Source: a virus. From it: a DNA stretch of 56,451 nucleotides. The notes under the pieces were generated by a model, which worked only from the letters and a program-made list of their open reading frames with translations, searched no databases and was not told the origin of the DNA. The stretch spans positions 1 to 56,451 of the IMG/VR virus record IMGVR_UViG_3300005663_000052; one strand, 5' to 3'. Positions 2,998 to 50,009 of the stretch are shown here, one piece after another. The position numbers and the translations under genes were made by a program. Each line of letters begins with the position of its first letter. The stretch's first letter is position 1.

Positions 2998-3365
2998 TAC
3001 CTACTCGCCATCACTTCGATAATTGCTCTCGCCTGACTCCGTTGATAGACGTCGAACATCTGCTGGATGATTCCAAAGTTCTTTCGGGTAATGGGGTCGT
3101 CAACTGGCCCACCAGCAGCTTGATGTTCGTGGAACCGCTGTAGCGTTTCCTGATTTCTTCGATTGAGAGTGTTCCGTTGGCCAACTGCCGGCGAAGGCGT
3201 TTTCTCATCTTGGCATTTGGGGCAGGCACGGCACGGCGGCTTGACGTGCTGAGGCCGCCTAACAAACCTGGTTCCCCGTTTGTTTCGCTGCCAAGTTTTA
3301 CTATCGTACATCCAGTGTTTGCAGTCATCGCACGTTGGGACATTGGGATGGGCTAGCAGAATCAC
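2997..3365 (-). CDS. Cysteine-rich tail assembly protein, probable chaperone
   Basis: 122 residues starting with GTG at 3365, coupled to the preceding stop as TAGTG. Cysteines are clustered (CDDCKHW near residue 12, CRACPKC near 46) and probably bind zinc; the C-terminal half is helical. Its place between a tail protein and the tape measure is where tail assembly chaperones lie, but zinc motifs are not typical of those in model phages, so the role is inferred from position. Confidence 0.6.
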   Translation of the reverse strand: MILLAHPNVPTCDDCKHWMYDSKTWQRNKRGTRFVRRPQHVKPPCRACPKCQDEKTPSPAVGQRNTLNRRNQETLQRFHEHQAAGGPVDDPITRKNFGIIQQMFDVYQRSQARAIIEVMASR

Positions 3366-3832
3366 TAGCCCGGTTCTGAGTTTTTTTCCGCCACTGTCTC
3401 GCGAGCAACGCCAATGGGAGCCGGCATGGCATGGGCAACCTCTTCGATTGCCACCTGCTCGGTCGCCTCGTCATCATCCCACTCGGGATCAAGGTCACTG
3501 GCCTCGGTGCCCAGCAGAATGGCCCACAGCCGATAGAACAGAATCGGCTTCAACCGCCGGGCCACATCCACAGTCACCTTGATCTGCCCGCCCTTGGCAT
3601 CCCGCAAATCCCAGGACACAAGATGTTCAACCAACGCCTGGGCGATCGAAACATCCCGCTTCTCTTCCGCCATTTCCTGCTGAGTTCGCAACAACTTGCT
3701 CCGTGCCTCGGCAATGAATGGACGAAACTCGAATCGAAGATCACCATGGAGTCCAGGACTGCCTTTGATGAATCCTTCCTCCGTGTATCCATCGTCGGGA
3801 ACGTAACTGAGCGGCTGGTGGTTGCTGTTCAT
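3365..3832 (-). CDS. Probable tail assembly chaperone
   Basis: 155 residues from the ATG at 3832 (MNSNHQPLSYV), which overlaps the stop of the tail tube gene as ATGA. The protein has a helical middle (FIAEARSKLLRTQQEM) and an acidic C-terminus with DPEWDDDEA. It sits directly between tail tube and tape measure genes, the normal position of the first tail assembly chaperone. No sequence motif confirms this. Confidence 0.6.
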   Translation of the reverse strand: MNSNHQPLSYVPDDGYTEEGFIKGSPGLHGDLRFEFRPFIAEARSKLLRTQQEMAEEKRDVSIAQALVEHLVSWDLRDAKGGQIKVTVDVARRLKPILFYRLWAILLGTEASDLDPEWDDDEATEQVAIEEVAHAMPAPIGVARETVAEKNSEPG

Positions 3833-33070: not shown

Positions 33071-33256
33071 TCAACACAATCCGCAGTCGCATGGGTCACT
33101 TGGATAGTTGCAATAGGATTTGTGGGTAGTACGCCTTTCTCGTTTGTTGTCTACTTCACAGCCACATGGTTCGGATGGGTAGCCGCACGAACTTGCATGT
33201 GAAACGTGGCCCACTCGCTTTTGCTGTTCTCTTAATTCTTTTTCAGTTCTTGCCAT
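33071..33256 (-). CDS. Small protein with two CxYPSxPCxC repeats
   Basis: 61 residues from the ATG at 33256 (AAAGGGATATC upstream). A helical start (MARTEKELREQQKRV) is followed by CGYPSEPCGC and, 18 residues later, CNYPSDPCDC with a final Cys. The twin motif suggests metal binding or a disulfide knot. It overlaps the next gene by 25 bases. Confidence 0.5.
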   Translation of the reverse strand: MARTEKELREQQKRVGHVSHASSCGYPSEPCGCEVDNKRERRTTHKSYCNYPSDPCDCGLC

Positions 33257-34482
33257 GATATCCCTTTCTTTGAAACAGTGAATCGTCGGCACCGAATGTG
33301 GCTCGACGTTCCTTCGGTATAGTAAATCACCAGCACACTCCCATCCCTGCAAGTCACGAAACAAGGATACGCACCGCCGCAAGAATCAATCTGGATCGGC
33401 CCCTTCCACGTCTTGCACTCGTCGAGAGAATAGTGGAGGGCCGTGGCGGGGACGCGGTGGGCGAGAAGGATGGCAGTTGGATGCTTCGGGACTATGGCCA
33501 CTTGCCCAGGTTCGGTGGATTTCTCCCCTCTGCCTTTTTCCACATCCAACTGCACCCGATGCAACACCGGACAGTGCAAAGGAAATCCAATATCCTCAGC
33601 CACCGTCCAATTCTTTCCGTCGTTGCTGGTGCTGTAGTGGCCGTTGCAGTTGTGGCCACGCATGACGGCGTAAAAACGAGCCGGTGCAGGACTGGGGTTC
33701 CCGGTTTGGCTTTTGCCAAGCGACGGTGCATCCGCTACGCTGCCAACGCCTGCGGACCCAGGGGGTTCACCACAACTCTCCCCCGTGGTTAATTCACGGC
33801 TCTGCACCAACTCGATAATATCCGTCTCAGCATCCAAATGCTTCCCACCATTCGGAATGTCGAACACCTGCCAGGTCTTGCCGTTGTCGGCCGAGCGAAT
33901 GACGTATGGCTGGTCGATGTGGTAGCTGCCGAGCATCAACAGGCCGTTGCCGAAATCGCGGACCGGGGAACTGGTGCCGGCGTCGTGCTGGAGTTTGCGG
34001 ACATGGCGGGAGTTGAACGTCTTTTGACTCAACGGGAGAATGAAAGTACCCGGGTTTGTTCGGGCCGCGGACGAACCGCCATCCCGTGTTTCAACTCCCG
34101 CCACAATCTCCGCAATATACACCCCATCCCCCGTCAACACCGGCACCGTCCCCAGCCGAAAATAGCTGAGCATCAACCGGCCGTCCCTCAGCAAGCTGAT
34201 GCTGGGGTCTCGGTCGTCTTCCTCTGTGTCCAGCAGCATGGCCGGCTCGCTCCACGTCCGCCCCTCATCACCGGAAATCGTGTAGGCGATCGCCCCGCCA
34301 CCTTTCCGCTGGTCCGTCCGTGTGACGTGGCCAGTCCCGTTGTAAAATACCACGATGATTCGGCCGTCGGCCATTCGACAGGCGCCGGGGAATGCACAGT
34401 ACGTGCCGGCGGGGCCGTGGTTGGCGACGGTCGTGTAGTTTTGGCTGCCGAGTAGGCAGGTGAGTAGGGCGAGTAGTTTCAT
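33232..34482 (-). CDS. Exported Asp-box (sialidase-like) protein
   Basis: 416 residues with a short signal-like start MKLLALLTCLLGSQN. Four Asp boxes (SxDxGxTW pattern) are visible: SGDEGRTW, SADNGKTW, SNDGKNW and SLDECKTW, giving a six-bladed propeller as in sialidases and other BNR proteins. RDPSISLLRDGRLMLSYF and VMRGHNCNGHYSTS supply candidate active-site residues, but the classic RIP motif near the N-terminus is not clear (FPGACRM instead). A Gly/Ser/Pro-rich insert lies near residue 240. Beside a symporter gene; may bind or cut host or competitor glycans. True sialidase activity is unproven. Confidence 0.65.
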   Translation of the reverse strand: MKLLALLTCLLGSQNYTTVANHGPAGTYCAFPGACRMADGRIIVVFYNGTGHVTRTDQRKGGGAIAYTISGDEGRTWSEPAMLLDTEEDDRDPSISLLRDGRLMLSYFRLGTVPVLTGDGVYIAEIVAGVETRDGGSSAARTNPGTFILPLSQKTFNSRHVRKLQHDAGTSSPVRDFGNGLLMLGSYHIDQPYVIRSADNGKTWQVFDIPNGGKHLDAETDIIELVQSRELTTGESCGEPPGSAGVGSVADAPSLGKSQTGNPSPAPARFYAVMRGHNCNGHYSTSNDGKNWTVAEDIGFPLHCPVLHRVQLDVEKGRGEKSTEPGQVAIVPKHPTAILLAHRVPATALHYSLDECKTWKGPIQIDSCGGAYPCFVTCRDGSVLVIYYTEGTSSHIRCRRFTVSKKGISWQELKKN

Positions 34483-34706
34483 TGTTCCCTCGTTTCTAGC
34501 ATTGCGTCGGCCAAAATGTAGGCTGCCTTGGAAATGTGTTCCGTCTCCCAGTCGTGTGCGAAAAGTTGATGTCTACCAATGCAACTAGATAATCCCGTCA
34601 ATGCCTGCCCCGCAAACCAATCGCGAAGGGACATTCCCGAATGGCTACAGTCAGCGGCGTTAGCCGCCGTTCTTGGAAAAGCATGCCCACCATCTTTTTG
34701 ATTCAT
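34479..34706 (-). CDS. Phage protein with GMSLRDWFAGQAL motif
   Basis: 75 residues with GGAGGGG before the ATG. Contains GMSLRDWFAGQAL and AAYILADAMLE, the two segments of a small widespread phage family of unknown function. Overlaps its neighbours by a few bases. Confidence 0.65.
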   Translation of the reverse strand: MNQKDGGHAFPRTAANAADCSHSGMSLRDWFAGQALTGLSSCIGRHQLFAHDWETEHISKAAYILADAMLETREQ

Positions 34707-35110
34707 TGCACTTCCCCTCCATTTCGAGTGGCCTCAACAGCAAAATACTTCGTCTGGATTTCCTCGAAAAACGGTAGCCCGTAGCCGTGGTAATTGTCGT
34801 GATGCTGCAAGGGATCGTCAAGAATCCACAGCCACATCTTGACGACTTCATACATCAGGCTGGCCGAGATTCCCCGTTGCCCTTCCGCTTTCTCGATTCC
34901 GAAATTCAAGTCAGATTCAAGTTGAGCCAAGAGTTCTTCTCTTGCCCAGGGTTTCAGAGTACATGTTTCTTCTCCTGGTAATGCAAAACCAAACGGCTCC
35001 CATTGGTCACTCTCGAAAAACAAAACCAAGCGAGCATAATCTCGGCCATCAAGGCATTGCGACTCTCTGCCGTTTCGCACTGCTTCCAAAACTGCCTCTT
35101 TGGTTTTCAT
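34703..35110 (-). CDS. Protein of unknown function between direct repeats
   Basis: 135 residues with GGAGGGG before the ATG. Mixed helix and strand with QRGISASLMYEVVKMWLWI. The final ATRNGGE residues repeat the end of the preceding protein because both ends lie in the same 22-base direct repeat. Not recognised. Confidence 0.45.
   Translation of the reverse strand: MKTKEAVLEAVRNGRESQCLDGRDYARLVLFFESDQWEPFGFALPGEETCTLKPWAREELLAQLESDLNFGIEKAEGQRGISASLMYEVVKMWLWILDDPLQHHDNYHGYGLPFFEEIQTKYFAVEATRNGGEVQ
34712..34733. repeat. 22-bp direct repeat, copy 1
   Basis: Identical to 35116-35137. Each copy encodes the last residues of one gene and the ribosome site of the next, and together they flank a whole gene. 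Recombination between them would remove or add that gene without harming its neighbours. Confidence 0.8.
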
Positions 35111-36015
35111 GGAATTTCCCCTCCATTTCGAGTGGCCAGTTTCCTCAAAACCCCAATCCCCATCTTGTCCCCCAAAAACTCCACATGGCCGTCGGCATAC
35201 AAAAACTCCACGCCCCCATCATGCCGACTGCTGAAAAAGATATCGTTGAACAAACAGTTCTGATCCGCCCGAGCGTGATTGTACTTCCGCTCTTCCGGAT
35301 CAGTATTGAGTGGCCACGTCACATTCTTGCAACTGAACACGCAGACGTGGTTGTCAATCCCGTAGATGTCCGTTCGATAAGCCCCCGCCGTCCACACTCT
35401 CAACCAGTTGATTTGCTCGCCGACGGCCAGGGTGTTGCTCGCACCGTCATGGGTATCGGCGATTCGCACACCGGACAGTGGATACAAGATTCCGTCGGTG
35501 TGATACCCGCCACAGTGACTTGTTTCGAGTAAGCGAAATTCCGCAGCCCCAGCGACACCGCAATAATTTGCAGTCCGCCATCGGAAGACTGTTTGCATGT
35601 GCGGGTCGAACGGCTGCCGCCCATCGCTGGGACATTCGTATCCTGGGATCCTGGTGGAGGACAACCGATTGTCCAGGCCATTGCAGATCGAATCATCGAA
35701 ATCAAACGCATCGTGTCGCCCCCTTTCATCGAGAAATGGAAGGATGAGAACTCGCCAGCCTTCTCGGGTGCCCGTGGGTGTGCCGTAGGGCCCGCCTGTT
35801 GATGTGAGAAAACCAACGGCAGCTCCGCATGGGAATGATTCGTGGGCTTCGTGGTAGCTGTGGAGAGCCAGGCCGATTTGTTTGAGGTTGTTGGAGCATT
35901 GGGCCATGCGGGCGGATTCCCGGGCTGATTGGACTGCGGGGAGTAGGAGAGCGAGCAGGACGCCGATGATGGCGACTACTACTAGGAGTTCGATTAGAGT
36001 GAATGCTTTCTTCAC
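35107..36015 (-). CDS. DUF1559 prepilin-like protein
   Basis: 302 residues from the GTG at 36015 (GTGA overlap). The N-terminus VKKAFTLIELLVVVAIIG has the type IV prepilin cleavage site and helix; it continues LPAVQSARESARMAQC, SNNLKQIGLALHSYHE, then the C-terminal DHVEF-like ending (YADGHVEFLGD). This is the DUF1559 family, hugely expanded in planctomycetes and nearly confined to them. It would be inserted in the inner membrane and processed by the host prepilin peptidase. Host-derived cargo next to a symporter and an Asp-box protein. Confidence 0.85.
   Translation of the reverse strand: MKKAFTLIELLVVVAIIGVLLALLLPAVQSARESARMAQCSNNLKQIGLALHSYHEAHESFPCGAAVGFLTSTGGPYGTPTGTREGWRVLILPFLDERGRHDAFDFDDSICNGLDNRLSSTRIPGYECPSDGRQPFDPHMQTVFRWRTANYCGVAGAAEFRLLETSHCGGYHTDGILYPLSGVRIADTHDGASNTLAVGEQINWLRVWTAGAYRTDIYGIDNHVCVFSCKNVTWPLNTDPEERKYNHARADQNCLFNDIFFSSRHDGGVEFLYADGHVEFLGDKMGIGVLRKLATRNGGEIP
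35116..35137. repeat. 22-bp direct repeat, copy 2
   Basis: Identical to 34712-34733; see that entry. Confidence 0.8.
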
Positions 36016-36317
36016 AACTCCAAGTCCTCCAGTAACTTTGTCATTTGCAAGCCGTGAATATACAGAGCATCCCAGCGGCCTTCTGTGCCCATGCATGCCC
36101 ACCAGCCATTCAATTTCATTTTGTAAAATCTGGCTTTCAGGTCGGCTGGCGAACTTCTGTCAAGACAAAATGATTCGTAGCCCGTGACACCGCCCTTAGC
36201 GAGCCACACGGCTCTGTCTGCTTCTGAGTCAGTCCGTACTTCTACTTGAATGTCTACAACTCGCGGCTCGCCTGTTCGACAATCAAACCGCACGCCTTGG
36301 ATGGTTGTTGTTTCCAT
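36012..36317 (-). CDS. Small protein of unknown function
   Basis: 101 residues from the ATG at 36317, five bases after GGAGG. Starts METTTIQGVRFDCRTG; probably alpha/beta with IQVEVRTDSEADRAV and a C-terminal helix. Sits between symporter and DUF1559 genes, overlapping both by a few bases. Not recognised. Confidence 0.5.
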   Translation of the reverse strand: METTTIQGVRFDCRTGEPRVVDIQVEVRTDSEADRAVWLAKGGVTGYESFCLDRSSPADLKARFYKMKLNGWWACMGTEGRWDALYIHGLQMTKLLEDLEL

Positions 36318-37666
36318 CATTTCCTCCCCGCCCACGCGGCCGTAAGTTGCACCGCCAACCCCAACGGACTGGCCAGTAGAAACGTAATCCCCGAAAAGTA
36401 AGTCACGTAAACCACCACGGCCAGGCAGAGAAAGCAACCCAGCCATACCATACGCACGCGGGCACGCGGGATAAAGAGAGCTGTCAACATCAACCCGCCG
36501 AGCGGCGTGGCCAGCAGATTGACAACCTTGTAGCACAGCTCGAAAAGGTTGCCTTCGATAACCCCGATGATTTGAGAGAGAATGAAAATGATGATGCCAA
36601 GGCCGACGGTGGCAAGGATGGTAATTCCCTGAGAACTACGCCTAGCAATCATGGGTTGAAACCAATCACTCGCCACCGTCGACACACACGAATTGATACC
36701 GCTAGAAAGACTACTCATGGCCGCCGAAAGCAAAGCTGCCACAATCAACCCACTGACGCCCACGGGGAGCCCCGCCCCAACGATTCGGGGGAACAAATCG
36801 TCCGCAACCGAGACGGGGCTCGACCCATGGGCCATCAGACAGCACACACCAACGCACGCGAGCAAGCCTGTCAACAGACAGTCCAACGCAAATCCCCCGA
36901 AGAGAACCTGCCGGGCCTGGCGTGAATCGGCCACTGCCAAAAACCGCTGGGCATTCATTTGGTCGTCCGTTTTCACGCAAATGCCGAGCGAAAGCGATCC
37001 CACGATTGCCGTGACTACTGAAGCCCGTGCCCACGGATCGCAGAATTTGAGCACAGGCCAATCTACGTGAAAGGGCGCATTTTGCCCATTCCACACCACC
37101 TCCTTTCCAGCGATCAAAATGACAGCGACAGCCCCGCCAAACATGACCGCCGCCTGAATGCAATCAGTCAAGCCAACCATTATCACAGCGAGTGTCCAGG
37201 TTGTTGCTCGATTACTGCGACCAAAGACAATCGGGGACAGAATCACACTTGATGCAATGTGGACTATCATGGCCATCCAAGCAACCCTCATGGCCAGAAA
37301 CAACGCCGATGCAAACCGCCCCAAAAAAACTCCAAATTTTTTCTCGATGATTTTGTAGGCCGAAACCGTTTGCGAAAACCGTAGGCGGGGAATGACTTTC
37401 CAGCCGACGAACCAAAGGGCAAAAGGGGCTGCCAACAGGCCAACGTAAACGCCCGGGCCGTTGGCTGCCACTTCCCCTGGGATGGCCGTGTAGCTGATTA
37501 CCGAGAACCACGAGACAAACAACGATGCCGCCACCGGCAACGGACCCATCCGTCGGCCGCCGAGAAAGAAATCATCGGCAGTGCGGTTCCGTTGCTGGTA
37601 CCATCTGCCAATCATCAGGACTGCCAGGCAGTAGCTCGCGATAATCAGATAATCCAACCAACTCAT
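36317..37666 (-). CDS. Sodium:solute symporter (SSS family)
   Basis: 449 residues, about 12 membrane helices. Family marks: ADDFFLGGRRMGPL near residue 30, SWFSVISYTAIPGEV with the sodium-site serines, and VAALLSAAMSSLSSGINS near residue 320. The SSS family imports sugars, sialic acids, amino acids and vitamins with sodium; the substrate cannot be read from sequence alone. In planctomycetes such symporters often sit beside Asp-box proteins, as here. A full-length transporter is very unusual phage cargo and implies metabolic help to a lysogen or infected cell. Confidence 0.85.
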   Translation of the reverse strand: MSWLDYLIIASYCLAVLMIGRWYQQRNRTADDFFLGGRRMGPLPVAASLFVSWFSVISYTAIPGEVAANGPGVYVGLLAAPFALWFVGWKVIPRLRFSQTVSAYKIIEKKFGVFLGRFASALFLAMRVAWMAMIVHIASSVILSPIVFGRSNRATTWTLAVIMVGLTDCIQAAVMFGGAVAVILIAGKEVVWNGQNAPFHVDWPVLKFCDPWARASVVTAIVGSLSLGICVKTDDQMNAQRFLAVADSRQARQVLFGGFALDCLLTGLLACVGVCCLMAHGSSPVSVADDLFPRIVGAGLPVGVSGLIVAALLSAAMSSLSSGINSCVSTVASDWFQPMIARRSSQGITILATVGLGIIIFILSQIIGVIEGNLFELCYKVVNLLATPLGGLMLTALFIPRARVRMVWLGCFLCLAVVVYVTYFSGITFLLASPLGLAVQLTAAWAGRK

Positions 37667-37869
37667 TCCGGATCTTCCTCTTGGCGAAACGGCACAGGTA
37701 CTTCCTCGTTTCCAACCAGTACATCAATGACCATTTTGATTCCGGCTGGTGTGTGTTCGACCGCCTCCAGCGTTTGCCGAAGTCGTTGTTCCACTGTCTT
37801 TCCGTCAATGACGCCGAAAATCTCGTGTTCGCCGGCAACAATCAGACAGACAATTCGCTTGGCTTTCAT
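37663..37869 (-). CDS. Small protein of unknown function
   Basis: 68 residues, ATGA overlap with the symporter. A strand (KRIVCLIVAGEHEIFG) followed by a helix (EQRLRQTLEAVEHTPAG). Not recognised. Confidence 0.45.
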   Translation of the reverse strand: MKAKRIVCLIVAGEHEIFGVIDGKTVEQRLRQTLEAVEHTPAGIKMVIDVLVGNEEVPVPFRQEEDPE

Positions 37870-38486
37870 TTCTGACTCGCAATGAATTCCATCAGAGCCT
37901 CGGAAATCCTCTTCTCCCGGGCTTCCGTGATCCGTTCCAGTCCAGAGAGATTCCCGTTGTTCTCGTGGTAGGCGGCCAAGTCTCCGACTGTCTCGAATCC
38001 ATTGTGCTTTGTCAGTGCAGTTTCAATCACCGACGACAATTTCAACACGGAAATAGGTGCCTTTGCCCAGCCAGCATTCTTCGGACTGATTTTCACCGTC
38101 GGGGCAGGTGCCATCAAGTCGGGTGATTCGGCAACCAGTCGGCCGAGTTCCGTGTAGGCAGCATCAATCTTCCCGCGAATCTCGTTGGCTTGATCCAGCA
38201 GGTTTTTTTCCTTGACCTGCAAATTCCGCACCTTCGCACGTGCTCTTTCTGCGGACGCCAGAAACTTCGGTAGCTGGGCTGCCGGTTGCTCGGGTTGCTG
38301 GGTGGGTGGTGCTGGCTCTGATTCTGGTTCTGTCTCGGGTTCGGGTTCTGGCTCGGGTTCGGGCGCCGCGGCCTCTGGTGCCGTTTCCGGCTCCGCTCCA
38401 TCCGCAACCTCATTCCAAGTTTCCAACTCGCCAGACTTCTCGGGCTTTTCCGTCTTCACTTCACTTGCGTCCAGTTCGATTCCCAT
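37866..38486 (-). CDS. Protein with Pro/Glu repeat linker and helical C-terminus
   Basis: 206 residues from the ATG at 38486 (TGATG overlap). Residues 35-75 are alternating Pro and Glu (PEPEPEPEP type), an extended linker. Then a coiled coil (SAERARAKVRNLQVKEKN) and a C-terminal domain with GFETVGDLAAYH and ISEALMEFIASQK, helix-hairpin-helix-like. Next to the ERCC4 nuclease gene, so a DNA recombination partner is plausible. Confidence 0.5.
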   Translation of the reverse strand: MGIELDASEVKTEKPEKSGELETWNEVADGAEPETAPEAAAPEPEPEPEPETEPESEPAPPTQQPEQPAAQLPKFLASAERARAKVRNLQVKEKNLLDQANEIRGKIDAAYTELGRLVAESPDLMAPAPTVKISPKNAGWAKAPISVLKLSSVIETALTKHNGFETVGDLAAYHENNGNLSGLERITEAREKRISEALMEFIASQK

Positions 38487-38980
38487 CAGTCTCCCTTTCC
38501 TTCTTGGGCTTGCTGCCAGAATTTCTCCAGCAGTCGGAATGTAGTGATTTCTGCGAGCCGCCTGTCGTGCATGGCCCACCAGCAAACCTTGTGGCGGACG
38601 GACCAACTGAGTGCTGTCCGGTAGATCGACTTGGGCGGCATTTTCGTATGTTCTGGTGGTGATTTGAGAATGGTTTTCCAATCGGCCTCGACAACTACCG
38701 CCGCGTACTCGAATTCTGCGAGCCGTGCGAATTCTTTCTCGAATCGTTCTCTGCCCTGGCCGCAGGAATTGTAGAGGTCGGCCAGGCTCTTCCGTTCGAT
38801 GGCGATGCGATGTTCGAGACCTTCGATTGAATAGTCACCTGTTTTGAGTCCCTTCCATTTCCACTCGACGGCCAGCGGGCGGTACTGCTGAGCGGCGCCT
38901 GCCCTGAATCCCTTGAATTCGTACGGCCGTTGCTCGCGGGAGTCTACCAGTACAACGAATGGGCATTTGATTGATTCCAT
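38486..38980 (-). CDS. ERCC4-domain nuclease
   Basis: 164 residues. The XPF/ERCC4 fold is marked by VVLVDSREQRPYEF, LKTGDYSIEGLE and IAIERKSLADLY, giving the GDxxxERKxxxD metal site, then AAVVVEADW. Such small phage proteins act as junction resolvases or structure-specific nucleases. Belongs to the recombination module with the ATPase and exonuclease at 42-44 kb. One pentamer array lies directly upstream of its start. Confidence 0.85.
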   Translation of the reverse strand: MESIKCPFVVLVDSREQRPYEFKGFRAGAAQQYRPLAVEWKWKGLKTGDYSIEGLEHRIAIERKSLADLYNSCGQGRERFEKEFARLAEFEYAAVVVEADWKTILKSPPEHTKMPPKSIYRTALSWSVRHKVCWWAMHDRRLAEITTFRLLEKFWQQAQEGKGD

Positions 38981-38986
38981 TGTGTT

Positions 38987-39545
38987 TTGCCTGCCAGTCC
39001 GTGCCGTGCCTTGCCCCGTCTCGCCATGCCCTGTCTAGCCTCGCCTGCGACGCCATGCCCTTCCCAGCCAGACCTTGCCGATCCGGACCCAGCCACACCG
39101 CGCCTCACCGTACCTGCCGTGCCTCACCTCGCCTTGCCGGTCCTGGCCCAGCCGGTCCGGGCCTTTCCGTGCCTGCCATGCCTGGCCCAGCCTTGCCCAT
39201 CCGAACCAATCCTCGCCCATCCGTACCGCGCCAGACCATCCCTTGCCTGCCGTGCCTCGCCTGCCGTGCCGTGCCATGCCATGCCTAGCCGCACCAGGCC
39301 CAGCCTTGCCACACCGGCCGTGCCCCGCCTGCCCAGCCTCGCCTTGCCTTGCCGTACCCATCCCTGCCGGTCCGCGCCTTGTCATGCCTGCCGTGCCGTG
39401 CCTTGCCATGCCTGGCCAGACCTTGCCTGGCCGATCCAGGCCCAGCCTTGCCACACCGGCCGTGCCGTGCCTTGCCATGCCTAGCCTGACCATGCCCAGC
39501 CCCACCGAGCCCCGCCAGCCGCGCCAAGCCCATCCGGGCCACGTC
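38987..39545. repeat. Pentamer array B (punctuated NNNCC repeat)
   Basis: About 560 bases made almost only of five-base units ending in CC on the plus strand (gtgcc, ttgcc, cagcc, gatcc and the like), roughly 110 units. Now and then a four-base unit, nearly always tgcc or ggcc, interrupts the run and is usually followed by gtgcc; distances between these marks are 14, 54, 59, 69 or 74 bases, all 4 more than a multiple of 5. Sub-blocks are shared with array A. Open frames across it are low-complexity and without ribosome sites. It occupies the whole gap upstream of the ERCC4 nuclease gene. Confidence 0.9.
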
Positions 39546-39554
39546 AAACTGCCT

Positions 39555-40025
39555 TCACTCAATATCATCCACCCCCGCGAAGGTCCGCTTGACGGCCCGT
39601 TCCAAAATGCTCAAATCCAACTCACTCAACTGCCCGTATTTCATTTGGAAACTGGACAGCCAATTTTCAGCCTCCCGTTTCGATTGCAGCAGCAGTTTCA
39701 CCCGACGTTCCTTGTCGTCAAGCACCTCAGCCAAAATATGGTACCCCTGCTCCTCACCCGACGGCGTCAAGTTGATGTAGTGCCGTGTCACTTCCCCGCT
39801 GCCGTCTGGCTTCGTTATATGCACCTGCCGAATGACCCGCCGGCAAACCTCCCGCCAGTGTTCCAGAGCGGCTTCCTTGATGTTCCAGTTGAACCGCTTA
39901 TGCAGTTCCCAATCCTTGTTTTCTTTGGCTGCCTCAATCACATCGTCTACCAACAGCCGGCCATCAGGCGTCCGCTCCACCTGGTCCAACTCTTGCCTGA
40001 TTTGTTCAACGTCCTCGCGGGTCAT
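39555..40025 (-). CDS. Protein of unknown function between the two arrays
   Basis: 156 residues from the ATG at 40025 (MTREDVEQIRQELDQVE). Helical and charged with KRFNWNIKEAALEHWREVC and LQSKREAENWLSSFQMKY. May be a DNA-binding partner of the recombination genes. Not recognised. Flanked by an array on one side and a strong hairpin on the other. Confidence 0.5.
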   Translation of the reverse strand: MTREDVEQIRQELDQVERTPDGRLLVDDVIEAAKENKDWELHKRFNWNIKEAALEHWREVCRRVIRQVHITKPDGSGEVTRHYINLTPSGEEQGYHILAEVLDDKERRVKLLLQSKREAENWLSSFQMKYGQLSELDLSILERAVKRTFAGVDDIE

Positions 40026-40052
40026 TACATGCCTCCGATTGTTTTGAGTAAT

Positions 40053-40084
40053 GGCCGCGGCCAGCCATGAAACTGGCCGCGGCC
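40053..40084 (-). terminator. 12-bp inverted repeat, possible terminator
   Basis: GGCCGCGGCCAG at 40053-40064 pairs with CTGGCCGCGGCC at 40073-40084 with an 8-base loop. It sits in the short gap between two genes. There is no good T-run on the minus strand, so it may be a processing or pausing site instead. Confidence 0.5.
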
Positions 40085-40100
40085 CGAACCGCCTCATCCA

Positions 40101-40763
40101 TCAAGCGGCAATCTTGAAAAAGCCCCAGCCCAAACCAGTGGACTTCTTGCTGTCGTTCCGGCCTTCACCGATGCCAACCTGCAAGCCCACTCTCAACAGC
40201 AGATTGCCAACGTCTTCGGCCGTGAATTGGTCGGCGTCATACTCGACGCGAACCTTTGCCTGCCAACCAGGCGACCACATCGGCCTTGCCCGAATGTCCA
40301 CAACCCCCGTGGCGTTGCGTACCGGCAACTCACTGTACTTGGGCTTGCCCTTGGTGATTTTCACCAGTGGCGTACCGTCGCTGCCGTAGCCGTCCGCCTG
40401 GATGACCAGGGCCAACTTGCCGCGAGTCATAGCGAACCCACACAGCTTGCAGGCGGAGATCATCGCTGCCCGCAGTCCGGGAGCCGGCAATCCGTGCCAA
40501 CCGCCGTCCTCTGCCTTGTGCATGGCATTCTCGTAACACTCCTTGAAATTCTTCGGCTTCCGTTTGGCTCCCTTCGTAGCAGTCGAGCCCGCTTCCTGCT
40601 TGGCTCGCATCTCTGCCAGTGCCTTGTTCGGAAACCTGTTCTGCACGTAGGGCGAGGTGCCCTCGATCAGGAATTCCGCCACGCGGAGATTCGGTGCAGT
40701 GATTTGGAGTGCCTCTGTCTTGCTTTCGGCACTCTTTGCCTTAGGTGCAGCTTTCTTAGCCAT
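40101..40763 (-). CDS. Conserved phage protein, possible RAMP-like fold
   Basis: 220 residues from the ATG at 40763, with AAGGAG upstream; frames that begin further up only read the repeat array. Basic start (MAKKAAPKAKSAESK), then GWHGLPAPGLRAAMISACK, LCGFAMTRGKLALVI, DGTPLVKITKG, RNATGVVDIRARPMW, and a final VGIGEGRNDSKKSTGLGWG. I recognise this as a family spread over many phages with no agreed function; the Gly-rich end is reminiscent of RNA-binding RAMP proteins. In this context it may take part in recombination. Confidence 0.55.
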   Translation of the reverse strand: MAKKAAPKAKSAESKTEALQITAPNLRVAEFLIEGTSPYVQNRFPNKALAEMRAKQEAGSTATKGAKRKPKNFKECYENAMHKAEDGGWHGLPAPGLRAAMISACKLCGFAMTRGKLALVIQADGYGSDGTPLVKITKGKPKYSELPVRNATGVVDIRARPMWSPGWQAKVRVEYDADQFTAEDVGNLLLRVGLQVGIGEGRNDSKKSTGLGWGFFKIAA

Positions 40764-40855
40764 TGTCTGGCTCCTTGTTCTGCATTCCCCGAGATTGATA
40801 AATTGCTCGCCATGGTTCGGGGGTGCCCATGGGTTGCTTGTATTGGTTGGTGGCC

Positions 40856-41363
40856 ATGCCGTGCCTTGCCTAGCCTTGCCGTGCCAGTCCACTCCCGGCC
40901 GCTCCTTGCCTGCGATGCCCGGCCAGTCTTCGCCAAACCCAGCCCTGCCGGTCCTGGCCAAACCCCGCCGCACCAAACCTTTCCATGCCTGCCGTGTCAC
41001 GCCTGGCCGTACCTAACCTCGCCCGGCCACGCCGCACCTCGCCCTGCCTCGCCTGCCGTGCCGTGCCCTGCCTGGCCCAGCCCCGCCAAGCCCCGCCTGC
41101 CATGCCCTACCCCGCCCCGCCGTGCCAAGCCCCGCCAATCCGTGCCTGCCGTGCCGTGCCTTGCCAAGCCTTGCCGCGCCCAGCCCCGCCGCGCCTAGTC
41201 ATGCCTGCCGTGTCTTGCCTGGCCCCGCCGCGCCGCGCCATACCTCGCCTCACCGTACCTGCCGTGCCATACCTCGCCTGGCCGATCCAGGCCCAGCCTT
41301 GCCGCGCCTGCCGTGCCGTGCCTTGCCATGCCTAGCCCAGCCCCGCCGCGCCCCGCCTGCCAA
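40856..41363. repeat. Pentamer array A (punctuated NNNCC repeat)
   Basis: About 505 bases with the same make-up as array B: runs of five-base units ending CC, interrupted by four-base tgcc marks followed by gtgcc. Blocks such as gccgatccaggcccagcc (near 41279) and gtgccttgccatgcctagcc (near 41318) are also present in array B (near 39430 and 39466). The array lies between the single-strand-binding-like gene and the conserved phage gene. No coding capacity is credible. Confidence 0.9.
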
Positions 41364-42060: not shown

Positions 42061-43140
42061 TCAGTAGGGAATGTCCCCTTCCTTCACCATGGTCTTCTGG
42101 CGAGGGTTTGCCGGTGCCTTCGCTGCCTCCTGGCCTTCGAGTTTCTTTTGCAGAGCCGAAATCAAATTTGCGGCCCCCTCAACATTCAATCCAGCAGTAG
42201 TTTTCGCTCCACGTTTTGCGATAGCCTTTTGGAAAGCCGCCAGTGGCATCCCCAGTTTTTTCGCCAGTCCCTTGCACAGATCAATCTGTTCGGCACTCGC
42301 TCGCTCCTGCCCACTGGTGTCGGCCGGCGGAGTGACTGGGGCCATGGAATCGGCCATCAGCCCGGCAGAAGAAGCCGGCTCCGGTTTAGCAGGAGGCGAT
42401 GTTTCGACTCCACCTGCCGCGGTGTCCCGCCCGCCCGGAGCCGGCTGGGAAGTGCTGCCAAGATTGAGCCAATCAATGATCGGCTTGACGAAGTCAGGCC
42501 CCGGCTTCTCAGCCCGGGCCCCATCGACTGCCGAACATCTTGTCTTGGTAACCAAAATCCGATGGTCCCAATCGAGTTCGCAGACTACGTCAAACTCGTA
42601 TTCCATGCCGGGTCGTTGGATGGGAGCCATGCCAACCTTTCGTGGAACCAATCGGCCTTTGGAATCTTCCTCCAGTACGTGTTCCATCTTGGAACGCATG
42701 GTGACAATCACGTGGGCTGGAAAAGAGAGCAGGGATTCCACCATCCGCTGGTGCTTTGGCGTAACGTCTTTCCACGCAGTGTATTTGTTTTTGGATGGGC
42801 TGTTTGCCACCTGCTCCAACGCACCTCCGATGCCCTCCCAAGCATGGCTGAGCGAATCCACGATCAGGACGTCAGGCCTCAGTCGAGCCGCCTCCTGCAT
42901 TGCCACCGTGTAATTCTGCGGATCAAAATGTTTGAGTTCGCAGACTCGCCAATTCCAGGTATGCCCATCAACCACTTCCCCCTGGTACTTGCTCATCGAA
43001 CCGTGTTCGGTATCAATGGCCACTACCCTCTTGCCGAGAGCAAATGCAAATCGCAATGCCGTGTAGGTTTTCCCGCTGCCCGATGGCCCGTCAATGGCCA
43101 TTCGGAGCTTGGCTTTTTTTCGTGTCGCTGGTTCAAACAT
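42061..43140 (-). CDS. Sak4-like RecA-fold ATPase
   Basis: 359 residues. Walker A GPSGSGKTYTALRFA at residue 18, Walker B PDVLIVDSLSHAWEG near 90, and IVTMRSKMEHVLEE with an arginine-finger region near 147. This is the phage AAA/RecA-fold family (Sak4, DUF-type AAA_24) that promotes single-strand annealing with a single-strand-binding protein. The C-terminal 140 residues are a Pro/Ala linker and a small helical domain. Lies in one run with the exonuclease and the binding protein. Confidence 0.8.
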   Translation of the reverse strand: MFEPATRKKAKLRMAIDGPSGSGKTYTALRFAFALGKRVVAIDTEHGSMSKYQGEVVDGHTWNWRVCELKHFDPQNYTVAMQEAARLRPDVLIVDSLSHAWEGIGGALEQVANSPSKNKYTAWKDVTPKHQRMVESLLSFPAHVIVTMRSKMEHVLEEDSKGRLVPRKVGMAPIQRPGMEYEFDVVCELDWDHRILVTKTRCSAVDGARAEKPGPDFVKPIIDWLNLGSTSQPAPGGRDTAAGGVETSPPAKPEPASSAGLMADSMAPVTPPADTSGQERASAEQIDLCKGLAKKLGMPLAAFQKAIAKRGAKTTAGLNVEGAANLISALQKKLEGQEAAKAPANPRQKTMVKEGDIPY

Positions 43141-43897
43141 TCAGACACCCCAATCTCTCGGCACAAGCCCGAGTATTAGTCAAGTCATTCGCCAAGTACG
43201 CCTTGGCTTTGTTCCTGTTGGTCGCCCATACCTTGTAGAAATCGGCACCAGACATGTCGGGAGTCTTCTGGCCAACGCCAAGTCCCTTGGCTAAAGTGTC
43301 CAGCGAAATGTATTCGCCATACACGCCCAGTCGATATACTTCCCTGATGTCGATGAAACCAGCATTCCATTTCCGGCCATCGAACATTTCCGATAATGGG
43401 AACGACAACCTGAGCACCCAGGTCCGGTGGGCCAAGAATGGTAAATCGAAACGAAAAATGTCGAAGCCAATCATCCGGTTGCCGCGACCGATCGTTTCCT
43501 TGGCAACGCCCCAAAATTTCAAAAGCTGATCGCGTTCGTCGCGACTGTCAATCTGGATCCGCTGATTGAAGTAGCCGGTGGCCAACACCTGGCCAGTCAT
43601 GGCGGAGAGTGCAGCCTTGTCTCGGAATTTCCCGAAGGCTGTCTGCCGTGCCGTTTCGACTTGCTTGACCAAGTCCGCTTGCTTGGCGGCAAATTTCACA
43701 CGGCCTTCGCTGATTTTTTTGGCAACCGTTTTCGCCAAACTTGCATTGCCGAGTTTGACGTCAGCATCCTTGTCGAACTCTCGGCCGATGATCCCCCCCT
43801 TGTCGAATTTCAACGGATCGAATGGCGGTGCCAACCGTTCCAACACGCCATCCGGCAACGGCCCAGTTTCGATATCAAACACCACTGCCTCAGGCAT
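43133..43897 (-). CDS. DEDD 3'-5' exonuclease
   Basis: 254 residues from the ATG at 43897 (GGAGGGCAAG before it; an ATG at 43915 is a weaker choice). The DnaQ-type motifs are AVVFDIETGPL, MIGFDIFRFDLPFL and YLANDLTNTRACAERL, giving acids D, E, D and D. It probably degrades or proofreads DNA ends and feeds the annealing ATPase. Residues 40-110 form an extra helical insert. Confidence 0.8.
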   Translation of the reverse strand: MPEAVVFDIETGPLPDGVLERLAPPFDPLKFDKGGIIGREFDKDADVKLGNASLAKTVAKKISEGRVKFAAKQADLVKQVETARQTAFGKFRDKAALSAMTGQVLATGYFNQRIQIDSRDERDQLLKFWGVAKETIGRGNRMIGFDIFRFDLPFLAHRTWVLRLSFPLSEMFDGRKWNAGFIDIREVYRLGVYGEYISLDTLAKGLGVGQKTPDMSGADFYKVWATNRNKAKAYLANDLTNTRACAERLGCLNV

Positions 43898-44183
43898 CTT
43901 GCCCTCCATTGGCATCGTAATGAGCCAGACAATCAGCCCGGCAATCCACGGAACAAAAGAAGTGGCGGCCCTGGTGCGTTACTGCCCTACCTTGAATTGG
44001 ATTGTTGCACCACTCGCAGACAAAGCAATTCTGCAACTCACTGCGGATGATTAGAATGTTTCGTGGTGCCGTAATTCCCAGCCGCACGGCACTACGTCCA
44101 ATCTGATTGACGACAATCTCAATACGATCAGGACCACGACCAATAAGAATCTTTTCCCTCAGCTTCCGTCTGAGTTCCAGCAT
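43890..44183 (-). CDS. csrA: CsrA RNA-binding domain fused to a zinc finger
   Basis: 97 residues with AAAGGAATT before the ATG. Residues 1-50 follow the CsrA pattern: MLELRRKLREKILIG, IEIVVNQIGRSAVRLGI, TAPRNILIIRSEL, keeping the N-terminal Leu/Arg and the Arg near residue 47 that contact RNA. Residues 54-85 are a zinc finger of treble-clef or TRASH type: CEWCNNPIQGRAV and HFFCSVDCRADC. CsrA normally dimerises and binds GGA hairpins to block ribosome sites. The fusion could tether a partner or a target. It is the last gene before the exonuclease and could control host or phage translation. Confidence 0.8.
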   Translation of the reverse strand: MLELRRKLREKILIGRGPDRIEIVVNQIGRSAVRLGITAPRNILIIRSELQNCFVCEWCNNPIQGRAVTHQGRHFFCSVDCRADCLAHYDANGGQDA

Positions 44184-44201
44184 CGAGCAATTCCTTTCTG
44201 C

Positions 44202-44345
44202 TCAGGTGAATTGAAAAGCACGGCGGGCCGGATTATCGTTGCGAAGGTATTGGGCGACAGGACCCTCACGCACACCTATGATTTCCGACAACTCTCTACG
44301 ATTCTTTGTGCCGCAACAACGTGCGACAGGAGCCGACGCTGCCAC
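44202..44345 (-). CDS. Possible 47-residue ORF ahead of the CsrA gene
   Basis: GTG at 44345 to TGA at 44204-44202. Ends RRELSEIIGVREGP, then QYLRNDNPARRAFQ, helical and basic, with a CCG near the start. It lies neatly between two genes in the same direction, but the start has no good ribosome site. Confidence 0.3.
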   Translation of the reverse strand: MAASAPVARCCGTKNRRELSEIIGVREGPVAQYLRNDNPARRAFQFT

Positions 44346-44722
44346 GCCGCCGCCGTGAGTTCTCAGTTTTTTCCAGGTCCAGTTATGACATTGGCTGCTG
44401 CCCTACCGCGTATCAGGCCAACTCGGCGACCCTCTGCCCATCCTGGATCTGTGGTTTCTTTTTGTCCGCAACTTGAACAGAGTAGCCCACCAGGATCTAT
44501 CGTATGGCTCTGAGAGCACATCACTTTGTCAGTCGGCAGGAATTCACCGCAGCCTGGACAAGTTTCTCTCACAAGACTCCTCCTCTCAAATAGTAAGCAC
44601 GGCGGGGCCGGAGTCTTCCGTCGTTTTGGGTGGTAGACCGCAGACAGAATCATCCGACAAGCTGGTTTGTTGCTCCTGGGGAGGTCCCCCGGGCCCGGCT
44701 CTACCACGCCGCCACCGTGATT
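44341..44722. repeat. Short direct repeats flanking the zinc-ribbon gene
   Basis: CCACGCCGCCGCCGTGA at 44342-44358 and CCACGCCGCCACCGTGA at 44704-44720 differ at one base. The second ends a few bases from the tRNA 3' end. They may be remnants of an insertion, but could also be chance. Confidence 0.4.
44363..44572 (-). CDS. Small zinc-ribbon protein
   Basis: 69 residues from the GTG at 44572, preceded by AGGAGGAG at ideal spacing. CPGCGEF at residue 5 and CSSCGQK near 34 form a zinc ribbon, with a further Cys near 19. The basic tail follows. Longer frames to 44707 lack a ribosome site. Role unknown; it lies upstream of the CsrA gene. Confidence 0.55.
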   Translation of the reverse strand: MRETCPGCGEFLPTDKVMCSQSHTIDPGGLLCSSCGQKETTDPGWAEGRRVGLIRGRAAANVITGPGKN

Positions 44723-44727
44723 TCAAA

Positions 44728-44801
44728 TCGTGGGGGCCAGACTCGAACTGGCGACCTCAAGGTTATGAGCCTTGCGAGCTAGCCAACTGCTCCACCCCAC
44801 A
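44728..44801 (-). tRNA. tRNA-Met (anticodon CAT)
   Basis: Reads as a complete cloverleaf: acceptor stem TGTGGGG with CCCCACG (1-72 is a U-G pair), D arm GAGC/GCTC, anticodon stem CAAGG/CCTTG with loop CTCATAA, T arm GCCAG TTCGAGT CTGGC. The anticodon stem lacks the three G-C pairs of initiators, so this should be an elongator Met tRNA, or an Ile tRNA with modified C. No CCA is encoded. It could supplement host supply or mark an integration target. Confidence 0.9.
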
Positions 44802-44809
44802 GTCGCCAT

Positions 44810-45046
44810 CTATCGACAGCAGAAGAACCCCGCCACCAGTCGCCGGAGTGGCCGACGGCAATGGAAGAAATGGTGAGCACGCGGGGGCACTACATGCCGC
44901 CGGAAACAGTGGCCGTGATGGTTCAATACGGCCGGTAGACTGACGGCGCAATGGCCGCCCGAACATCCGATGGTACTGGCCGGAGCGCACGCCGCACAGC
45001 CAGTAACGAAAACACAAATCAACGCAATCCACATCAAACGGTTCAT
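44810..45046 (-). CDS. Small Cys/His-rich lipoprotein
   Basis: 78 residues, MNRLMWIALICVFVTGC with a VTGC lipobox near residue 17. The mature part is Cys/His-rich (CSGGHCAV, HHGHCFRRHV, FHCRRPLRR), unlike a normal enzyme and probably metal binding. It ends eight bases from the tRNA. An overlapping frame exists, but this one has the signal. Confidence 0.5.
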   Translation of the reverse strand: MNRLMWIALICVFVTGCAACAPASTIGCSGGHCAVSLPAVLNHHGHCFRRHVVPPRAHHFFHCRRPLRRLVAGFFCCR

Positions 45047-45050
45047 CGTT

Positions 45051-45551
45051 TCATCCTTTTTTCGAGGAAACAGGAATAGGGGTAAGTCGACATCGCAGGT
45101 ACAGGCCGCTCTTGTACGGCATGTACAGAATCAGTTGAGGCAGGGTGTCGTTCTGCATTTGCTTCAGCGACGGTCCCTTGCTGCCGTAGAGGGCGACCAT
45201 GGCTCGTTTGCGATCGGTATCGTGGTACACTCGGGAGAATTCGTAGCCGTTGACCAGTAGATTTGGCAGCAACTCTTTCTCCATTACCTGGCATGCAGGG
45301 CAATCGTGTCGCCCGACGTACACGAGGAACGGAGTCTTGTTTTTCATGGCCCGAGCCCTTGCCGCCACGTAGTCGTCCGTTGGGACTGCACGTGGAGTCG
45401 GAAGTGTGGGAGTCTCGGCAGCCGGGCCAACGCGAATCCAAGACAGGAGAATCATGCCGACGAGGATGGCAAATGCGAAGATCACCCAAATGGGAACACC
45501 CATCCACTTTGCCAGATCCGAAAACCAAGAGAATGGCTTTATCATCATCAT
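45051..45551 (-). CDS. Membrane-anchored thioredoxin-like protein
   Basis: 166 residues. Membrane segment at about 18-42 (WVIFAFAILVGMILLSWI), a Pro/Thr linker, then a thioredoxin domain FLVYVGRHDCPACQVMEKEL with a CPAC active site and a downstream TLPQLILYMP (cis-Pro region). It would face the periplasm and could form or reduce disulfides in exported phage proteins, several of which are Cys-rich. A stem-loop precedes the gene. Confidence 0.65.
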   Translation of the reverse strand: MMMIKPFSWFSDLAKWMGVPIWVIFAFAILVGMILLSWIRVGPAAETPTLPTPRAVPTDDYVAARARAMKNKTPFLVYVGRHDCPACQVMEKELLPNLLVNGYEFSRVYHDTDRKRAMVALYGSKGPSLKQMQNDTLPQLILYMPYKSGLYLRCRLTPIPVSSKKG

Positions 45552-45564
45552 GCTTCTTCAAAAT

Positions 45565-45603
45565 GCCCGGCGGGGCGAAGAACATATCAACTCCCCGCCG
45601 GGC
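45565..45603 (-). terminator. Stem-loop between polyproline and thioredoxin-like genes
   Basis: An 11-bp perfect inverted repeat (GCCCGGCGGGG at 45565-45575 with its complement at 45593-45603) has a 17-base loop and is followed on the minus strand by ATTTTG. It is probably a weak rho-independent terminator. Confidence 0.6.
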
Positions 45604-47140: not shown

Positions 47141-48052
47141 CTAGATCACCCGCAGTCGCGGTTTCGGCAGAGTTGGAGAAGGCAGAACATCGGCTGCCTG
47201 CCGTTGCTGAGTGATAGTCGGATCTTCGTAACGGGCCGATTGATCGGAGTGGTGGCCGAGTTGATGGCCCGCGTCTATACCGCCGAGCTTGGAGTAGCTG
47301 TAGGTGGTTCGGCGGATCTTGTGGCACAAGTCTCGTCGACTTGACGGCAGCTCTGCTTTGGTCAACAGTCGACGGAAATGAACGTAGAACGTCGAATCGC
47401 TGTGCGGCCAGGGGAATAGTAATCTGCGAGGTGGTTCCCAGATCACCTCGATAGCCACCATACAGTCGGCGGGCAATCGAAACACTTGATCGGCATTTTG
47501 CTTCTGAGTCTCCGCGAACACCAACACAAAGGATCCTTGTCGGTCCACGTTGGCCTGTTCGATAGCAAGTGCCGCACCTTTCCGGAGCCCAGTCCAATAA
47601 AGCACCTGAATGAATGCCATCCACCAATCGCAAGCAGCTATCTCGCCAATCCGCCCTGGCGTGAGTGTCGCGGATTCCAGCATTTTGGAAATCTGGTTCA
47701 CCCGAAAGGCAACAGGCACTCGCTTTGGTTCCTGCAACGGATGCACGTCTGGCTCTTCGTCCAGCACTCCCTTCCGAAACGCATACCGAGCCAATGTCAG
47801 TAACCGCGTGATGTGGAAGTTGACGGTCACGTTGCCTAACTCGGGTTTGGCTACCAGCCATGCCCGAAAGCCGTGTAGAGTATTCTCGATCAAGTCTTCG
47901 AGGTGTGGATCCCGATCGAGATACTTTTGGAAATGAGCCAGTGTGGCCAGATAGTTCTTTGCCGTACCCCGCTTCCCGCTGGGCTGGCGGCGAGGGCGGT
48001 AGACATCCACGTAGAACGTAGATAATTTGGTAGGTTTCATGGCATGAAGCAT
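47141..48052 (-). CDS. Tyrosine integrase
   Basis: 303 residues. N-terminal SAM-like DNA-binding part (LATLAHFQKYLDRDP, YAFRKGVLDE), then a catalytic domain with R in LYWTGLRKGAALAIE, HxxR-type KIRRTTYSYSK, H in GHQLGHHSDQSARY and the nucleophile in ARYEDPT. The conserved DHSD-like stretch resembles the planctomycete integrase group. Integrates and excises the phage. The adjacent non-coding stretch may be attP. An alternative start is the ATG at 48040. Confidence 0.8.
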   Translation of the reverse strand: MLHAMKPTKLSTFYVDVYRPRRQPSGKRGTAKNYLATLAHFQKYLDRDPHLEDLIENTLHGFRAWLVAKPELGNVTVNFHITRLLTLARYAFRKGVLDEEPDVHPLQEPKRVPVAFRVNQISKMLESATLTPGRIGEIAACDWWMAFIQVLYWTGLRKGAALAIEQANVDRQGSFVLVFAETQKQNADQVFRLPADCMVAIEVIWEPPRRLLFPWPHSDSTFYVHFRRLLTKAELPSSRRDLCHKIRRTTYSYSKLGGIDAGHQLGHHSDQSARYEDPTITQQRQAADVLPSPTLPKPRLRVI

Positions 48053-48364: not shown

Positions 48365-49036
48365 CTACGGGAAATGGCCAGTCGGCAATTGGAATTCCGC
48401 CGGCAACGGTTCTAGGTGCCGATTGCAGTCGACGAACTCATACCCATGGGAATCCTGGAGATCTCTCAGCCCCTGCCACATGCACCGTTTGACTTCCGGC
48501 CAGATCCGCGGCCACCGCTCAGTGATCCGGCCCTCCCAGAAATGGCCGAAGCCATCCCCCCACTCATTTCCGTAGAGGTAGATGGGCTGGCCCGGATTGA
48601 GGATGGCCGCGAAGTTGACGAGATCAGTAAAAGTAGATCCGTAGTGATAAATGGATTGTTGGAGGGTGGTGGCTGGGATCTGATTCCGGGTGCCGGGGTC
48701 CCCGCGGCGGTAGAAGAGCCCTGGGACACCTCGGACTCTCACTCTGCCCTGAGCCTCGCTGGCGAAAGCCTCTTTGCCGACGAACATGAAGCGGAGTCGC
48801 TCCTGGAGCCTGGCATCGTCGGCAATGGCCGCCAGCTCGACGTCAAGCTGCCTCACCATCTCGGCCGAGTGGTTGTCGCCCCAGGTCCACACCGTCGGCC
48901 GAAAGCCCGCTGACTGCCAGTGAGACAGGAATGAGTTGCAGGTGAATACCCACTCAGCCTGATCGAGGTGTTGCCGCTGACTGTTTGTCAAATCTGCGAG
49001 GCTAAAACTGCTGCCGAGGACATACGATGGAGCCAT
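48365..49036 (-). CDS. Possible GT42/DUF115-like glycosyltransferase
   Basis: 223 residues with GGAG before the ATG. The N-terminus MAPSYVLGSSFSLADL followed by WVFTCNSFLSHW and FRPTVWTWGDN has the layout of sialyltransferase-like (GT42) and DUF115 proteins: a first strand with a Gly/Ser loop, an Asn strand and an aromatic DN strand. Downstream NPGQPIYLYGNEWGDG could be the donor site. In a cassette with NeuA and NeuB it could transfer the activated sugar. Family match is weak. Confidence 0.45.
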   Translation of the reverse strand: MAPSYVLGSSFSLADLTNSQRQHLDQAEWVFTCNSFLSHWQSAGFRPTVWTWGDNHSAEMVRQLDVELAAIADDARLQERLRFMFVGKEAFASEAQGRVRVRGVPGLFYRRGDPGTRNQIPATTLQQSIYHYGSTFTDLVNFAAILNPGQPIYLYGNEWGDGFGHFWEGRITERWPRIWPEVKRCMWQGLRDLQDSHGYEFVDCNRHLEPLPAEFQLPTGHFP

Positions 49037-50009
49037 GGAATTCTCCGATTGCTTGCTGCGCTACCTTGTGCTGTTGTTGAATGGTATCGACGACAACAGA
49101 ATAGTCATGTCCCAAGCACTTCTCAATCGCCCCGTCAATTTGCTTGGCAATTTCTGGAGCTTCAATATCACACGGAGACTGCAAAGCTTCAGACATTCCC
49201 TTACCGCGAATATCTGTCTTGATGAGGATGCTCTTGGTACCAGCAATCAGGCTTGCGATATGGCTATGAACTCTAAACCCAATATGCAAATCGCTGTTGC
49301 GACACACCGATAACATCCTCTCGAATGAACCGGCAACTTCCACAATTTCAACGCCGTGTTGTCGACAACAAAGGATGAGATCTTCGTCCTCGCCAAAAAT
49401 CCCGTGATTGAATAAGCATTGGATCTTAGATACAGGGAACCGTTTTAGTAGATAGGAGAGAACATGATGATTCAACCTGGACCATCTGATAAATGGAGCA
49501 CCGCTGGAAAAAACAACGGTAGCGGGTTCTTCGCTCCTGAAGGAAATCTCGTCTACGTCGTTGTGAAACCAAGTAGAGCAACCAACAAAGGTTGAAGTCA
49601 CTCCCTTGCTCTGCAATTCTCGCTGAGTAACTTTGTCTCTGGTAACAATGACCATCTGCTTCAAGGCATCGACTATACCGTCTTTCAATGTTAGCGAATA
49701 AGCATCGGGATCTTTTTCAATGTCCCCCAGCCCAACACCCCATGCCACAACCGGCACCCTGACGGCATCCAGATCCAGGCCGTAAAAATCAAACACGCCA
49801 TTGCATATACACGGGCCGCCGGGAATCACCAGGCAGTCACTGGCGTTGATGACTTCTAGTTGCTGAGCAGTAAATGATTGCCTGCTCTGCTCGGCCGTCC
49901 AGCGGATTACGTCAAAGCCAGCGTCACGAAAGAGCTTGCTGGTAGATGCCACGATGAAATGGTCGCCAGCATTCTTCCGGGCTCCACTGAGAAGTACAAT
50001 TCTGGCCAT
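49002..50009 (-). CDS. Polysaccharide pyruvyl transferase family protein
   Basis: 335 residues. Marks of the family are LLSGARKNAGDHFIV near the start, CLVIPGGPCICNG, TRDKVTQRELQSKG and IGFRVHSHIASLIAG with the RxHxxxxA-type motif near the C-terminus. Such enzymes either add pyruvate ketals to polysaccharide or have been recruited for other sugar steps. Overlaps the next gene by 35 bases, suggesting coupled expression. Confidence 0.8.
   Translation of the reverse strand: MARIVLLSGARKNAGDHFIVASTSKLFRDAGFDVIRWTAEQSRQSFTAQQLEVINASDCLVIPGGPCICNGVFDFYGLDLDAVRVPVVAWGVGLGDIEKDPDAYSLTLKDGIVDALKQMVIVTRDKVTQRELQSKGVTSTFVGCSTWFHNDVDEISFRSEEPATVVFSSGAPFIRWSRLNHHVLSYLLKRFPVSKIQCLFNHGIFGEDEDLILCCRQHGVEIVEVAGSFERMLSVCRNSDLHIGFRVHSHIASLIAGTKSILIKTDIRGKGMSEALQSPCDIEAPEIAKQIDGAIEKCLGHDYSVVVDTIQQQHKVAQQAIGEFHGSIVCPRQQF

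Follow-up and report, generated by a model that had tools for sequence, protein, structure and literature searches.

A phage CsrA-family protein with a treble-clef-like Cys4 tail at the head of a recombination gene cluster

CsrA is a global translation regulator that forms an intertwined dimer gripping GGA-bearing mRNA leaders, where it blocks or exposes the ribosome-binding site. To our knowledge, the extension through which the CsrA of B. subtilis binds FliW holds no cysteine finger. Arginine 44 of E. coli CsrA has been reported to be essential for RNA binding, partners may bind at the C-terminal extensions of CsrA proteins, as has been worked out for FliW, and a survey found csrA in 30 of 2,517 phage genomes (PMC7366521). 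Among other mobile elements, the csrT of Legionella ICEs can take over part of what host CsrA does (PMC5655016). The literature searched shows no tested role for phage copies of CsrA, and a full-text search found no publication on a CsrA-zinc finger fusion. A phage csrA is already known; the combination of CsrA with a finger described here is new in what was searched.

The window analysed is the whole virus record IMGVR_UViG_3300005663_000052, a stretch of 56,451 bases on which profile searches matched terminase, portal, capsid/protease and integrase genes. The integrase, of the tyrosine recombinase type, lies on the minus strand at 47141..48052 (PF13102 E 1e-11; phrog_1 E 7e-14). The gene of interest, also on the minus strand, is a single ORF at 43890-44183 that runs from ATG to TGA over 97 codons (97 aa), with the AAAGGA of a probable ribosome-binding site shortly 5' of the ATG (44189..44199, minus strand; a call from sequence only). 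Between these two genes stands a tRNA-Met (CAT) on the minus strand at 44728-44801, which may be a phage-borne tRNA or an attachment-site trace and was the only element returned by an Rfam scan of 43000-45600. Elsewhere on the record, the minus strand encodes a polysaccharide pyruvyl transferase-like protein (49002-50009; PF04230), and two degenerate short-repeat arrays of the GGCA/TGCC type (39068-39482 and 40917-41361) flank the genes at 39555-40097 and 40101-41000.

The N-terminal half of the protein (residues 1-52; 44028..44183, minus strand) is confirmed as a CsrA-family domain by profile scores, alignments and a structural model, as the initial annotation had read the first ~50 residues. 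Residues 1-51 scored 52.1 bits against Pfam PF02599 (E 6.5e-14, cut-off 27; 52.7 bits in a second search) and also matched PHROG 9500, 'CsrA-like regulator'. Against the NCBIfam equivalog TIGR00202 it obtained 42.1 bits, short of the cut-off of 70.1, and its matches to the other NCBIfam CsrA models were likewise under the equivalog cut-offs; we thus regard it as a member of the CsrA family and not as an ordinary orthologue, and for the same reason its RNA specificity may have drifted. Like the CsrA/RsmA family, the N-terminal 51 residues carry L4, R6, the G-I-x-A-P core and the RNA-contact arginine, and the alignment shows G15, R34, G36, A39-P40 and E49 conserved as well. That arginine is R47, the counterpart of E. 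coli R44 in the alignment, and the RNA-binding edge of the CsrA dimer includes the arginine equivalent to R47. Unlike the family, the phage protein carries R9 at the position of a G in E. coli CsrA, a 3-residue insertion after G15 and, in place of the C-terminal helix, a Cys4 tail of ~45 residues.

Given 21 aligned CsrA proteins as input, AlphaFold2 predicted the CsrA beta fold with a pLDDT of ~92-94 over residues 11-40. The only convincing Foldseek matches of this model were CsrA, RsmA and RsmE chains (prob 0.99-1.00, E 0.02-0.2); structural alignment to CsrA/RsmA chains gave a modest Z of ~5 over 48-51 residues, and the VIA structure-match list spans residues 1-48 only. The best PDB match by sequence was the CsrA-FliW structure 5dmb. 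Such a domain would form a homodimer and bind GGA-bearing RNA.

The tail (residues 53-97; 43893..44027, minus strand) holds six cysteines, arranged as C56-x2-C59-x17-C77-x3-C81 plus an extra C53 and C85, with FCSxxC at the second pair. The initial annotation had placed a Cys4 finger in frame with CsrA, and this can be read directly from the DNA: both halves share one frame with no stop between them. The tail resembles the FCS/FLZ, LIM and VATC fingers (PF04570, PF00412 and PF18716) in its C-x2-C, its predicted beta-hairpin and an FCSxxC that opens a predicted helix. Known members of these families are mostly eukaryotic and of unrelated context, and unlike them the phage tail falls under every curated cut-off: zf-FLZ gave E 0.009 and 15.9 bits (cut-off 23.4), LIM E 0.02 and 15.5 bits (22.9) and VATC E 0.02 and 14.9 bits (26.6). 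The profile search proposed for both halves was therefore successful for CsrA only; since no Pfam finger family reached its cut-off on the tail, the finger is a call at the level of motif and model.

In the full-length AlphaFold2 prediction, the tail forms a beta-hairpin (residues 68-75) and a helix (82-91) with pLDDT block means of 62-76, and the tail modelled alone without an alignment again gave a hairpin and a helix (pLDDT 53). The cysteine spacing fits a treble clef, a fold class defined by a C-x2-C zinc knuckle, a beta-hairpin and a second cysteine pair where the helix begins. A PDB search with the finger-only model, itself weak at pLDDT 53, gave no credible match, and all hits of the finger alone against phage proteins had an E of 1 or more. 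The weight of this evidence is limited because a single sequence stands behind the finger. We accordingly call the tail treble-clef-like, not a proven zinc finger; the putative finger may bind zinc.

The fusion gene is the first of a recombination cluster, in the order CsrA-finger, exonuclease, Sak4-like ATPase. The second gene, for a DnaQ/RNase H-like 3'-5' exonuclease (43133..43897, minus strand; PF13482 E 1.5e-7; phrog_403 E 0.003), has its best start at ATG 43897, so that it overlaps the end of the fusion gene by the 8 nt ATGCCTGA (43897-43890), and its GGAGGG sits inside the last codons of the fusion. The third encodes a Sak4-like/AAA_24 ATPase of the ssDNA annealing type (42061..43140, minus strand; PF13479 E 1.4e-24; phrog_1366 E 1e-76; phrog_124, Sak4-like, E 1.7e-8). 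We also considered whether the finger is a frameshifted part of the downstream gene, the outcome that the initial annotation had named as fatal to the fusion. This was rejected because the exonuclease gene begins in another frame at ATG 43897 and has its GGAGGG within the fusion's last codons. The fusion and exonuclease genes may be translationally coupled.

On this evidence we favor, with a rough probability of 0.55, the reading that the protein is a phage translational regulator encoded in an early recombination cluster, in which a treble-clef module replaces the C-terminal helix and adds a contact to protein or RNA. The main rival, which we regard as unlikely, is that the tail is unselected: a csrA lost its stop, translation reads through to the next in-frame stop, and the stretch is rich in cysteine by chance or is a decayed finger gene. 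Two sets of evidence bear on this, namely the distribution of the fusion and the properties of the tail itself.

With respect to distribution, the 44 distinct viral and 80 distinct cellular CsrA ORFs compared included no other with a Cys4 tail, which favors an unselected tail. The other phage CsrA proteins are like this one in being encoded by a small csrA on a phage genome and unlike it in being plain (median 62 aa). The 43 viral CsrA loci examined held no CsrA + Cys4 fusion. Whole-protein searches of viral contigs and genome contigs, of 294 Planctomycetota genomes, of 397 genomes of one class (with sequence-level inspection of the best matches) and of 102 genomes of one order returned no second fusion, the 294-genome and 397-genome sets overlapping. 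A CsrA-CxxC pattern run across the 397 genomes found no true fusion, nor did four pattern scans of viral sequence, each using a different alanine codon, whose 5, 14, 29 and 5 hits were all translated; as a positive control, the GCACC pattern recovered the fusion of the phage record itself. The whole 97-aa protein was unmatched in 50,697 phage records and 72,556 plasmid records. The suggestion that other planctomycete phages might carry the same fusion was thus followed up and none was found; the CsrA + Cys4 fusion is a singleton in the collections searched, from which near relatives of the record may be missing, and for that reason the finger gives no sign of selection. The finger is, as the initial annotation had maintained, no part of standard CsrA, being absent from the ordinary proteins.

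Several other CsrA architectures came to light in these searches. One of the 44 viral ORFs, L070 (contig IMGVR_UViG_3300028812_000120, from about 1075), has a CxxC in a different short cysteine-rich tail, CDSCHGAGCEGC, and another, L047 (from about 4001), has a C-terminal extension of ~100 aa. A pattern scan also brought up ORFs ending in a CsrA-like stretch, SISIQAPQSVAVRRTEIEKVEQ (L104, 183-327; L124, 10658-10802). In two planctomycete genomes, CsrA is fused to a response-regulator receiver domain (L189 in G543 and L190 in G519), in L189 as one 258-aa ORF with Pfam scores of 52 bits for CsrA and 49 bits for Response_reg; a CsrA tied to a phosphorylation switch would be of interest on its own.

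With respect to the tail itself, the sub-threshold Pfam scores fit an unselected stretch, and the looser Cys4 pattern arose in 4.6% of shuffled tails. Against this, the strict form '[FY]CSxxC' was found in 3 of 100,000 shuffles (3e-5), although both rates are guides and no p-values because the pattern was selected after the sequence had been seen. Scored over all its codons the tail comes out low, which also favors an unselected stretch; a low value would be expected of a Cys/His-rich stretch, since amino-acid composition enters this score along with codon choice. Synonymous codon usage, scored separately, is ordinary for the phage and speaks for a coding tail, in a test that hardly separates coding from non-coding or off-frame sequence. 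Further points against an unselected extension are that 45 codons remain open and run 8 nt into the gene that follows, as is seen where phage genes are coupled, and that both structure predictions place the hairpin and helix as a treble clef requires.

A second alternative concerns the host. The initial annotation spoke of a planctomycete phage, and a planctomycete host is likely, not proven, on two grounds. The record encodes a DUF1559 protein whose N-terminus is of the pilin type, a kind of protein typical of planctomycetes, and the closest CsrA found (L136, 59% identity, with the same 3-residue insertion) lies in a prophage-like region of the Planctomycetota genome G364, which was placed in that phylum by kinship steps from a Planctomycetota genome. 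A tree of the CsrA domain, built on 49 columns, had no resolution, and the row nearest to the phage domain by identity was again L136, at 57%. A cargo-like block on the minus strand of the record (33232-38681), with genes for a BNR-repeat protein, the DUF1559 protein and a sodium:solute symporter, could be host-derived cargo or a mark of host sequence in the record.

In such a host the phage protein could act as a competitor that forms mixed dimers with a host paralogue or titrates its RNAs, and its finger could bring in a host partner or block one. Rewiring of host mRNA use, which the initial annotation had suggested, would be a conceivable outcome of a phage CsrA. Planctomycete genomes often carry several CsrA-like genes, of several subfamilies with short tails and with first-look candidates numbering as many as 21 per genome, so a phage CsrA would meet host CsrA there. 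The conserved core positions of the phage domain and the precedent of csrT, which as noted replaces some host CsrA functions, point the same way. In contrast, the R9-for-G exchange and the insertion of 3 residues may change the dimer or its RNA edge, and overall we consider such competition improbable.

A third alternative assigns the protein to recombination, with the finger binding DNA or an exonuclease or Sak4 partner and the CsrA half serving as a mere dimerisation scaffold. It is suggested by the 8-nt overlap with the exonuclease gene, by the Sak4-like ATPase gene that comes next, and by the repetition of this gene association in other records. The ATPase as a query returned 22 viral loci, three of which have a csrA-like ORF close by: L166 is arranged as in the phage record, with csrA, exonuclease and ATPase; L167 has csrA, other ORFs, then exonuclease and ATPase; and L168 has csrA, other ORFs and the ATPase, with no match to the exonuclease. 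The exonuclease as a query found no relatives among the viral contigs. In L167, the ORF directly after the csrA-like one (3115-3744) encodes a homing-endonuclease-like AP2-domain protein with an N-terminal treble-clef-like finger, C-x2-C...CSQSC, and this protein could have been the origin of such a finger beside csrA.

The association extends to G364, where the surroundings of csrA (L211) include a Sak4-like ATPase 55% identical to that of the phage record, a resolvase-type nuclease and excisionase-like and primase-like proteins; from this gene content the stretch looks like a prophage early region. Its gene order differs, the ATPase gene being upstream of csrA there and downstream in the phage record, and its CsrA has an acidic, Cys-free tail of 17 residues where the phage protein has the finger. 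What counts against a recombination accessory is that csrA is a plain CsrA-like ORF elsewhere in the association: the three viral ones all score as Pfam CsrA, and neither these nor the G364 protein has a finger. The association is therefore independent of a DNA-binding finger, and we judge this alternative very unlikely. That a separate finger protein is made from the TTG at codon 50 (L50), the sole in-frame start-like codon ahead of the finger, can be practically dismissed, as this codon has no obvious Shine-Dalgarno sequence and the stop-free CsrA frame yields the fusion regardless.

Returning to the phage translational regulator, we propose that the phage makes a CsrA-family RNA-binding protein that would act as a dimer on GGA-bearing leaders. 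The treble-clef-like module would take the place of the usual C-terminal helix, and since it starts six residues past R47, each dimer would hold two fingers near its RNA-binding faces. The fusion protein would most likely time the translation of early phage messages, host messages or both, in infection or lysogeny. The finger would touch RNA or a protein partner, much as the B. subtilis CsrA extension does with FliW; an extension after the core could act as a partner site in the phage protein as well. The RNA targets and the role of the finger are inferred. One candidate target is the cluster itself, with a GGA at 44194, in the stretch that probably serves the fusion gene as its ribosome-binding site, and another in the GGAGGG of the exonuclease gene. 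Self-regulation through these sites is only a suggestion, because GGA upstream of the phage's genes shows no clear enrichment (15 of 36, against a background of 35%) and both sites are outside predicted hairpin loops.

More broadly, and tentatively, planctomycete phages may use a cluster-borne CsrA to time early translation, here in a zinc-dependent two-domain form whose treble clef would set targets or partners; we hold this wider picture to be possible though doubtful. The recurrent placement of csrA beside a recombination ATPase offers a defined locus at which the function of phage CsrA can be probed, and a CsrA with a built-in finger would lend itself to testing whether extensions at the C-terminus can re-aim CsrA.
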